From NCBI GenBank assembly GCA_000961595.1, contig LADO01000030.1, positions 1 through 42,205 on the forward strand: a DNA stretch of 42,205 nt. Direction: 5' to 3'. A model generated the notes under the pieces. The model saw nothing but the letters and a program-made list of their open reading frames with translations, was not told the origin of the DNA and searched no databases. A program made the position numbers and the translations under genes. This DNA is from Peptococcaceae bacterium BRH_c4b (lineage in GTDB: Bacteria; Bacillota; Desulfotomaculia; Desulfotomaculales; Desulfocucumaceae). Positions 4,028 to 38,455 of this stretch are shown one piece after another (position 1 is the first letter of the stretch; the number at the start of each line of letters is the position of its first letter).

Positions 4028-4111
4028 GTCAAAAGTCGAATGTCAAAAGTCAACGAGAACTGGGAAACTGAGACCTTCGACTTTAGACTTTAGACTTTCG
4101 ACCTTGGACTG
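4028..4111. repeat. Heptamer element A1 (inverted orientation), between cwlD and rpsI
   Basis: Left arm: four heptads GTCAAAA, GTCGAAT, GTCAAAA, GTCAACG (4028-4055). Spacer: 14 bases. Right arm: heptads of the form YTTNGAC (4070-4111, including TTTAGAC twice). This is the reverse complement of the pattern [GTCYAAR]n-spacer-[WTTYGAC]n seen at 6045, 26313 and 38358. The reverse-complemented spacer shares CTCAG-TTTCC-CAG with the copy at 6045. Confidence 0.75.
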
Positions 4112-4149
4112 AACAGTTACAATAATTTTATGAAAAAGAGAGGGAATAT

Positions 4150-6044: not shown

Positions 6045-6141
6045 GTCTAAAGTCCAAGGTCTAAAGTCCAAGGTCTAAGATCCAAGGCCTCAGGTTTCCA
6101 GCTTTCTTTTGACATTTGACATTCGACATTTGACATTCGAC
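6045..6141. repeat. Heptamer element A2, between truA and ecfT
   Basis: Left arm: seven heptads, five of them GTCTAAA/GTCCAAG/GTCTAAG and two degenerate (6045-6093). Spacer: 13 bases. Right arm: five WTTYGAC heptads (6107-6141: TTTTGAC, ATTTGAC, ATTCGAC, ATTTGAC, ATTCGAC). The arms pair at six of seven positions, with a pyrimidine-pyrimidine clash at the fourth base of each heptad. The right arm stops three bases short of the ecfT stop codon. Confidence 0.8.
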
Positions 6142-6933: not shown

Positions 6934-6951
6934 GGGAAAAACCTCATTATT

Positions 6952-7201
6952 CAGTAGTCAGTAGTCAGAATTCTTTAATGCCCCGAGAATATGCTTCCAG
7001 CAATTTACTAACCTTTTGCAAAAGAAGTTTTGTTTCGGAAATATTTATTCAGGTATTCGGAATTCAGTAGTCAGACATTCATGCCGCTAACACGGCACCA
7101 TCAGACGATGAAAATTGTATTTTCAGGGCAGGATTCAGAATACTTCGAGACGAAAAACCGTTCTCTCATTCTAACTACTGACTACTGACTACTGACTACT
7201 G
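6952..7201. repeat. Heptamer element B: CAGTAGT arms flanking the ecfT-ecfA2 gap
   Basis: CAGTAGT occurs twice plus a partial copy at 6952-6972, again at about 7065-7077, and its complement ACTACTG occurs four times in tandem at 7174-7201. The outer arms are inverted relative to each other about 200 bases apart. GAATTC follows both left copies. The interior, 6973-7173, has no convincing gene. The right array runs into ecfA2 and supplies its stop codon. Confidence 0.75.
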
Positions 7202-8057
7202 ATTTTTTGCTACGTAGGTAGCTGTTTATTTCTTTCTCCACCCCATCAATGGTCAATCCGTCTGTCTGTAGCGGCACCCCGTTGGTGTTGAGCCTGTGTT
7301 TAAGTTCCGCTGCAAAGGGTACATCCAGTCCAATGGAGCGCAGCCCCGGAGGATCTGCAAAAACCTCCGCCGGCGTCCCCATAAAAAATGGTTTCCCCCT
7401 CTCCAGCACCAGCACACGGTCTGCCATTGAGGCTATATCATCCATATTGTGGGTTATCAGTATCACCGTAATGCTTTCGTCTTGCTTCAGTTTTTTTATC
7501 GTTTTGAAAATCTGTCGCTTGCCGGCGGGATCTATACCGGCCGTGGGTTCATCCAGTACCAGTACACGGGGTCTATTAGCAAGGATTGAGGCCAGTGCCA
7601 CCCTGCGCCTCTGACCGCCGCTTAAAGACCAGGGGGAGCGCTCTCTAACCACTTCAGGATCCAGTCCTACATTTTTGAGAGCATGAGTGACCCTTTGCTC
7701 AATTTCTGCAGGCGTGAGATCCATATTTGAAGGACCAAAAGCAACTTCCTTAAAAACATTTTCCTCAAAAAATTGATATTCCGGGTACTGAAAAACCAGT
7801 CCTACCTGCCGCCACAATTCCCGGCGGTATTTTTTTTGCCTTGTATCCAGCCCGTTGATCAATACCCGGCCCCTGGTAGGAACCAGTAGCCCGTTAAGCA
7901 GCATGGCCAGGGTAGATTTTCCGGAGCCGGTGGGTCCGGCTAAAGCCAGTATTTCCCCTTCGGACACTTCCAGGTTAATATTCTGCAGGGCATGGGTTTC
8001 CAGAGAGGTTCCTTTCAAATAAGCGTGGTGTACATCTTCCATTGTTATAACCGGCAT
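7182..8057 (-). CDS. ecfA2: Energy-coupling factor transporter ATPase EcfA2
   Basis: The 291-residue ABC ATPase has Walker A GPTGSGKST (41-49), the Q-loop glutamine at about 90 in VFQYPEYQFFEENVFKEVAFGP, a signature that distinguishes EcfA2 from EcfA1, the LSGGQRRR signature (145-152), Walker B VLVLDEPTAG (165-174) and the H-loop histidine (about 203). It pairs with EcfA1 and EcfT to energise vitamin uptake. Its start overlaps ecfA1 by 13 bases, indicating translational coupling. The last residues SVVSSQ and the TAG stop are encoded by three copies of the heptad TCAGTAG, so the repeat appears to have replaced or extended the original C-terminus. Confidence 0.94.
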   Translation of the reverse strand: MPVITMEDVHHAYLKGTSLETHALQNINLEVSEGEILALAGPTGSGKSTLAMLLNGLLVPTRGRVLINGLDTRQKKYRRELWRQVGLVFQYPEYQFFEENVFKEVAFGPSNMDLTPAEIEQRVTHALKNVGLDPEVVRERSPWSLSGGQRRRVALASILANRPRVLVLDEPTAGIDPAGKRQIFKTIKKLKQDESITVILITHNMDDIASMADRVLVLERGKPFFMGTPAEVFADPPGLRSIGLDVPFAAELKHRLNTNGVPLQTDGLTIDGVEKEINSYLRSKKSVVSSQ

Positions 8058-12165: not shown

Positions 12166-12384
12166 TTATTTGTAACGGTATACTATTCTGCCCCGGGTCA
12201 AATCATAAGGCGATAACTCCACCATAACCCTGTCCCCGGATAATATGCGAATAAAGTTCATCCGAATTTTCCCGGAAACATGGGCCAGCACTTTATGCCC
12301 GTTTTGAAGTTCAACCCGAAACATGGCGTTTGGCAACGGCTCAATTACGGTACCCTCTACTTCTATAACATCCTGCTTTGACAT
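12166..12384 (-). CDS. infA: Translation initiation factor IF-1
   Basis: The 72-residue protein is a single OB-fold: [42 protein letters not shown], and [21 protein letters not shown], at the standard length for IF-1. It binds the 30S A site during initiation. It lies between the KOW gene and rpmJ. Confidence 0.97.
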
Positions 12385-12419
12385 TAGGAATAAGCCAACC
12401 TCCTTATTACGGGGTACTA

Positions 12420-12698
12420 TTATCCTTCAACATTGAGCATCCCTTTTAAAGCCTTCCGGACATCCAGGTCGGTAATCTTGCGACCGGATTTGATTTTTTC
12501 CGAAAACTCAGCATCGATTTGCGGCAACGGACTAAGATGTTTGATATTTTTTTTCTTAGGACCGGCTACTTTGCGGTATTCACCGTCTGCCACCAGATAC
12601 ATATTATTAACCGTCTTATCCAGAACCAGATAATATTTCCCCCGGTCACGTCCGGACACCGACACTACCAGTTGACCGGGTACTAAATGTTCTTCCAA
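12420..12698 (-). CDS. KOW-domain RNA-binding protein (L14e-like)
   Basis: The 92-residue product starts with a KOW-type SH3-like barrel ([22 protein letters not shown], about residues 5-26; then [18 protein letters not shown]) and ends in a helical segment ([17 protein letters not shown]). Small proteins of this type, similar to archaeal/eukaryotic L14e, lie between map and infA in many Clostridia; their function is not established, though RNA or ribosome binding is likely. An ORF extension to TTG 12743 exists, but a GGGAGGTG site six bases before the TTG at 12698 makes that the better start. Confidence 0.85.
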
Positions 12699-23530: not shown

Positions 23531-23550
23531 ATAAGTTCCTCCTTCAAAGG

Positions 23551-23775
23551 TATGGGGACACACCTTCTTAGCTCGGACAGATCCCCTACTTTTGAACAAA
23601 TTCATGAAGGAATGTCCCCAATTGATGTATGGGCACACACCTTCTTAGCTTGGACAGGTCCCCTACTTTTGAACAAATTCACGAAGGAATGTCCCCAATC
23701 GATGTATGGGCACACACCTTCTTAACTTGGACAGATCCCCTACATTTGAACAAATTCACGAAGAAATGTCCCCAA
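23551..23775. repeat. Three tandem 77-bp repeats between rplC and rplD
   Basis: Units begin with TATGGG at 23551, 23628 and 23705, a period of exactly 77. Each has TGGGGACA (or TGGGCACA in units 2 and 3) at the left end, CCTTC inward of it, and GAAGG-AA-TGTCCCCA (GAAGA in unit 3) at the right end, so each can form a 13-bp interrupted stem with a loop of roughly 40 bases. The array fills almost the whole rplC-rplD spacer. It is related to the solo copy at 1279-1331. Confidence 0.9.
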
Positions 23776-26312: not shown

Positions 26313-26386
26313 GTCCAAGGTCTAATGTCTAATGTCTAAGGTCCCTGTTCTCATTGACTTTTGACTTTTGACTTTCGACTTAGTCT
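26313..26386. repeat. Heptamer element A3, between tuf and fusA
   Basis: Left arm: GTCCAAG, GTCTAAT, GTCTAAT, GTCTAAG, GTCCCTG (26313-26347). Spacer: four bases. Right arm: CATTGAC, TTTTGAC, TTTTGAC, TTTCGAC, TTAGTCT (26352-26386). The right arm directly abuts the fusA stop codon. It has the same orientation as the copies at 6045 and 38358. Confidence 0.75.
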
Positions 26387-38357: not shown

Positions 38358-38455
38358 GTCTAAAGTCTAAAGTCTAAGGTCCAAGGTCTAAAGACTAAGA
38401 TTCTCAATCCCTCTTTTGACTTCTGACATTTGACTTTCGACATTTGACTTTTGAC
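38358..38455. repeat. Heptamer element A4, between the L10 attenuator and rplJ
   Basis: Left arm: GTCTAAA, GTCTAAA, GTCTAAG, GTCCAAG, GTCTAAA, GACTAAG (38358-38399). Spacer: 14 bases. Right arm: TTTTGAC, TTCTGAC, ATTTGAC, TTTCGAC, ATTTGAC, TTTTGAC (38414-38455). It is transcribed in the rplJ leader downstream of the terminator and ends about ten bases upstream of the rplJ ribosome binding site. Confidence 0.85.

Follow-up and report, generated by a model that had tools for sequence, protein, structure and literature searches.

GTC-heptad hairpins between genes of a Peptococcaceae bacterium: a probable family of MITE-like mobile elements

The described systems that stand nearest to the repeats analysed here are heptamer direct repeats (PMC4679880, PMC4692102) and REP and RAYT (PMC2817692, PMC8266576), with stem-loop families (PMC2267715) as further near literature. 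A REP is defined as a hairpin of 20-50 nt preceded by a GTAG-type tetranucleotide (PMC8266576). Ribosome stalling is reported for REPs no more than 15 nt from a stop codon (PMC12306157), and of 496 REPs in E. coli 260 follow a stop codon at a distance of at most 15 nt, a count cited in the same paper. Among heptamer repeats, TAACTGA forms 169 direct sets and one indirect set (PMC4679880), and heptanucleotides are said to be the most frequent class of long simple repeat in bacteria, which is attributed to polymerase slippage at 7 nt (Mrazek 2007, in the form in which PMC4679880 quotes it).

The window, by which we mean the whole stretch of 42,205 nucleotides analysed, and the genome to which it belongs contain a family of hairpins that resembles each of these systems in part. 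Like the REP/BIME sequences of enterobacteria and pseudomonads, which occur with RAYT, its members are short, numerous, imperfect intergenic hairpins that form mosaics with other repeats. They differ in having no adjacent RAYT and no GTAG foot (no tetranucleotide of this type was found beside the heptad cores of the window genome), in arms made of 7-nt units, and in the terminal inverted repeats (TIRs) and 8-bp direct repeats of full-length copies. With MITEs the family shares its non-coding nature, a length of 98 bp, TIRs, flanking direct repeats, nested insertions and a patchy distribution, whereas its interior consists of a hairpin of heptad arrays, terminal repeats are missing from most copies and no autonomous partner was found among the IS66 and Y1 families. 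Heptamer repeats (cyanobacterial STRR, TAACTGA and long simple sequence repeats) have the same 7-nt period, intergenic location at gene borders and scatter over distant phyla. They are described as direct tandem arrays; here, by contrast, two inverted arrays surround a conserved loop and are copied as a unit. The 7-nt tandem unit is present in intergenic DNA, and in 37-41 elements of the window genome it has an inverted partner around a loop. Rickettsia palindromic elements are alike by description, in that Anaerolineae uvrA and argS contain heptad palindromes in frame; the heptad hairpins are nevertheless mainly intercistronic, and their arms are heptads. In the searchable literature we found no description of a hairpin of inverted GTC arrays, and six typical heptad strings had no match in the papers open to searching, a set that leaves subscription papers outside and makes this weak evidence of novelty.

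The original prediction placed heptamer arms at four sites of the window. All four are real, with cores at 4028-4109, 6045-6141, 26313-26379 and 38358-38455, but a fifth, related site of GTCAGTA heptads at 6951-7202 had been overlooked. If each heptad is written to begin with GTC, the arms of the four sites are GTCYAAR on one side and GTCRAAW on the other. These heptads far exceed chance: GTCYAARGTCYAAR has 24 matches in the window, with 2.8 +/- 1.8 expected, and GTCRAAWGTCRAAW has 25, with 3.2 +/- 1.7 expected; none of 100 shuffles reached the observed number in either case. The subfamily A copy at 4028-4109 (plus strand) lies between rpsI, which encodes S9 and has its stop side 66 nt off, and cwlD; it consists of (GTCRAAW)n, the 20-nt loop AACGAGAACTGGGAAACTGA and (YTTYRGAC)n. 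Its reversed orientation was borne out, and it additionally bears a perfect outer end of 11-12 bp, TGAACAGTTAC, that runs to 4120 and had been missed. At 4109-4120 of the plus strand this end reads CTGAACAGTTAC, the reverse complement of the terminal repeat GTAACTGTTCAG, with its first base overlapping the last GAC of the core. The copy at 6045-6141 (plus strand) has the pyrimidine arm first and a 35-nt loop, and stands 3 nt past the stop codon of a gene for a CbiQ-like ECF transporter T-component, with truA next. Its loop does share CTCAG, TTTCC and CAG with that of the 4028 copy, as had been noticed, and belongs to a genome-wide subfamily. A second subfamily A copy, at 26313-26379 on the minus strand (minus-strand loop AATGAGAACAGG), sits 7 nt past the fusA stop codon and ahead of the tuf ribosome-binding region, and the copy at 38358-38455 (plus strand, 29-nt loop) lies some 12 nt ahead of rplJ in the spacer that separates this gene from rplA. 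The fifth site, 6951-7202 on the minus strand, is a copy of a related repeat, C, with GTCAGTA heptads at both bounds (TCAGTAGTCAGTAGTCAG and (ACTACTG)4); it holds no nested A1 hairpin, and its empty site lies at about 7141.

A search of the window genome (3.62 Mb in 66 contigs) gave 57 exact matches to GTCYAARGTCYAARGTC, with none for the control, and 87 exact matches to a two-armed pattern, with none for the reversed control. Grouped, the matches amount to at least 50 sites, not the initial four only. Around them, 37 stretches were examined and yielded single arms and, according to how strictly they were defined, 37 to 41 two-armed elements. What had been proposed as a small repeat family that spreads at gene borders in both orientations is indeed one: it has dispersed by copying over these sites, is nested in other repeats and is common to a distant lineage. 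The two-armed pattern has no match in 59 relatives, among them a same-genus genome that is 84% complete and six genomes from the family, and a slightly stricter form has none among 298 other genomes of the phylum. The proposed comparison of orthologous spacers agrees, with no heptads at the four positions in five relatives, as far as the contigs reach. At the rplA-rplJ spacer the window genome has the heptad hairpin and the same-genus genome has an unrelated repeat, GGGGACACACCTTCTT...GAAGGAATGTCCCC, instead. Two tandem copies of the latter repeat family lie in that spacer (L219, about 12241-12474), and three tandem 77-bp copies are found in the window itself at 23550-23775.

Most copies sort into subfamilies by a conserved loop: A with GTCAATGARAACTGGGAACCTTAGAC, its variant A1 with AATGAAAGCTGGAAACC, and B with GTCCTTTTAGRTGAC. 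Beyond the arms, GTAACTGTTCA is matched at 7 or more of 11 positions at 10 of 82 core ends of the window genome versus 1 of 214 ends in other phyla, among the matches listed. Two copies are full length, both 98 bp, one in the window genome (L037, 2425-2522) and one in the genome DeMMO6_36 (L206, 2963-3060). The 12-bp TIRs of the two are GTAACTATTCAG/GTAACCGTTCAG and GTAATTATTCAG/GTAACTGTTCAG. Each is flanked by 8-bp direct repeats, AAATAATG/AAATACTG in L037 and ACTTTAAG/ACTTGAAG in L206, which as target-site duplications (TSDs) are imperfect, matching at 7 of 8 positions. The repeat was first seen in L037; L206, found later, bears one at the predicted place. The flanks of seven other candidate TIR pairs from the same scan match at 0-4 of 8. 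A further locus, L102, is likewise flanked by an 8-bp direct repeat, and a genome-wide TSD scan of 45-nt flanks, made without fixed positions, showed no excess over mismatched flank pairs. Both terminal repeats occur in the two full-length copies only, and about three quarters of copies have none.

The hairpins also insert into another repeat. Seven copies of repeat C, that of the window included, have an empty GTCTCGAAATA/TTCTG junction, and three carry an A1 hairpin at exactly this point. This A1 insertion has no terminal repeat, which, together with the lack of terminal repeats in most copies, suggests that hairpins without these ends may be moved in some other way. Repeat C is itself a composite of about 200-270 bp with GTCAGTA or GTCAGGA heptads and the internal motif GTCATCCTGAGCGTAAGCGAAGGATCTTGGATTCTTCACTTCGTTCAGAATGACA (L032, 882-1137; L038, 2561-2827; L054, at 2532; L227, at 3567), and it starts with GTAACTANTCAG as well.

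Outside the window genome, A copies, B copies and the start of repeat C are found in a MAG deposited as Desulfovibrio sp. DeMMO6_36. The genes on three of its contigs (JAGVAS01; L102, L149 and L206) look Firmicute, and the MAG is probably misnamed or mixed. Its B copy falls within the diversity of the window family, with a mean identity of 0.81 versus 0.78 among the family's own copies. Its EF-G is 68% identical to that of the window genome, as against 72-91% for the relatives of the order whose full-length EF-G was aligned, and the UvrC encoded beside the B copy, on the same contig, shares 46% identity with that of the window genome and is no closer to it than to the UvrC of other members of the order. 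The family has thus been transferred between lineages. The contig with EF-G also has an element between rplA and rplJ, where it and the window copy lie on opposite sides of the presumed L10 leader; the different places point to independent insertion into the same spacer.

Shared loops, the clean insertion in repeat C and full-length copies with TIRs in two distant Firmicutes argue for a MITE-like mobile family that crosses lineages. We hold it probable (roughly 0.7) that the four window sites are copies of such a non-autonomous hairpin family, a REP-like effect between genes included. A transposase acting in trans would then move the elements; it would be of the DDE type, judged from the terminal repeats and the 8-bp duplication alone. 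Heptad number would vary through slippage of 7-nt units, outer ends would have been lost from most copies, and the surviving copies would be chiefly those lying behind a stop codon and ahead of the next gene's ribosome-binding site. Once transcribed, the hairpin would probably behave much as E. coli REPs do, shielding the upstream message and damping translation of, or coupling to, the next gene; by this analogy we infer a REP-like function. Against such a function, the RNA stems of the window genome are modest or weak, with z-scores of +0.2 to -3.1.

The search for a mover covered two candidates. IS66 elements have GTAA ends and make 8-bp duplications, which prompted their test; the window genome has no IS66 gene. 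RAYT was rejected as well, with no GTC-heptad array within 1.5 kb of any of the 12 Y1 transposases. None of the 11 TIR-like sites in the window genome was recognised adjoining a transposase, and no transposase with matching ends (GTAACTRTTCAG) was found there. Among vehicles, plasmids and phages gave no match, and only 9 viral contigs have any GTC-heptad hairpin. Three RAYT-sized Y1 transposase genes, on separate contigs of the window genome, have inverted GGGGACGGTTCT repeats on their flanks and are probably the genome's real REP/RAYT system.

The elements have a preferred position. With genes taken as ORFs of at least 100 aa in the same stretches and an approximate intergenic background, 21 of 37 elements have their start no more than 10 nt from a neighbouring gene's stop codon, compared with 4.4% of intergenic positions (p ~2e-19); as with the REPs of E. 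coli, about half are near a stop codon. Co-directional genes flank 30 of the 37. Orientation relative to the genes (15:8) has no significant bias, and a strand-specific RNA function was set aside on this ground.

Heptad-armed hairpins also occur beyond the window genome, a wider scope than the original prediction had given the architecture. A scan of named species with a two-armed pattern found them, among the matches listed, in Anaerolineae, other Chloroflexi, Acidobacteria, Bacteroidota, Planctomycetes, Verrucomicrobia and others; because the pattern imposed the GTCNAAN core, the scan says nothing on a preference for GTC. These hairpins have the same plan and no terminal repeats. Among the matches listed, 45 of 111 lie near a stop codon versus 5.8% of the background, a count that is partly non-independent since some loci are orthologous, and the adjacency also holds separately in Chloroflexi, Acidobacteria and Bacteroidota. 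Of 101 Flavobacterium genomes, 21 have one to eight copies. In Anaerolineae, hairpins are kept at orthologous sites in species that share 70-87% identity in the flanks and up to 98% in the elements themselves, and their stems are strong (about -30 kcal/mol). The palindromes in frame within uvrA (L160, 4477-4532; L161) and argS (L118, 3340-3381; L179) encode similar peptides (KSKV.G..LRPSTF). The regular Y-Y mismatch predicted for the arms is real in the window genome, where position 4 of the heptad sets a purine arm against a pyrimidine arm in 21 of 29 paired elements and two alike in none, but it is not general to the architecture: in other phyla the arms are alike, both purine or both pyrimidine, in 71 of 93 cases among the matches listed, which makes the mismatch a trait of the lineage.

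A heptad core and a stop-codon position common to at least four distant groups are unexplained by the systems known to us, and suggest either a shared insertion mechanism or a shared operon function. Tentatively, and with somewhat less than even confidence, GTC-heptad palindromes may be viewed as one phylum-spanning class of mobile or maintained hairpin, placed specifically behind a stop codon and before the following gene and independent of RAYT, that ranges from old orthologous copies in Anaerolineae to a recent MITE-borne expansion in the window Firmicute.

The strongest competing account, which we consider possible though rather unlikely, makes the hairpin a functional intercistronic RNA element under selection (an attenuator, or a processing or translation-damping hairpin) with incidental mobility. 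It would fit the place directly behind stop codons in four phylum-level groups (among the matches listed), the orthologous retention and strong stems in Anaerolineae, and the ribosome stalling reported for REPs so placed (PMC12306157). In the window genome, however, the copies are species-specific and occur in both orientations; in Anaerolineae some copies lie inside coding sequence, and no Rfam family matches at gathering score within the window. Only 4 double compensatory changes were counted (slid controls gave about 1), pairing is broken by 15 single changes, and changes are few overall.

Convergent local slippage, by which a short palindromic seed at each site was extended into a hairpin as polymerase slippage lengthened its heptanucleotide arrays, is improbable, and as the main origin in the window genome it is already contradicted. 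Slippage would account for arm lengths that differ by whole 7-nt units, for the tiny, unrelated loops of Chloroflexi copies (among the matches listed) and for the concentration of inverted array pairs at period 7 (9 own and 72 other loci among the matches listed; 0-4 at periods 5, 6 and 8-11), and it accords with the rank of heptanucleotides as the top class of long simple repeats (Mrazek 2007, to the extent quoted in PMC4679880). Yet shared non-repetitive loops and ends, the nested insertion, the copies with TIRs and TSDs and the sharing with a distant lineage all need copying, and 50 independent origins in one genome are implausible when the genomes sampled from the order and the phylum lack the element. 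Least credible of all is movement by a REP/RAYT system, in which the TnpA-REP HUH transposase recognises a hairpin that is single-stranded and mismatched. Imperfect palindromes whose mismatches are regular, a high copy number, intergenic sites beside stop codons and the RAYT-sized Y1 genes of the window genome would suit such a system, but the hairpins have no GTAG or GGAG foot, no Y1 gene has heptads beside it, the RAYT-like genes have different flanking repeats of their own, such as GGGGACGGTTCT, and full-length copies bear TIRs with 8-bp direct repeats, which to our knowledge HUH transposition does not produce.

If the sites are copies of a MITE-like mobile family, heptamer repeats, hitherto described as slippage-made direct tandem arrays, can be assigned a distinct mobile unit that has its own ends, sites of insertion and a favoured location. 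Other heptads, such as TCGATAT, GTGACAA, CTGACGG, GCAAAGT, GATTGCC, AATTAAC and GCAGAAA, likewise form inverted array pairs, at nine loci, and the CAG/CTG control pattern is itself plentiful in three genomes; the heptad hairpin class is therefore wider than GTC.
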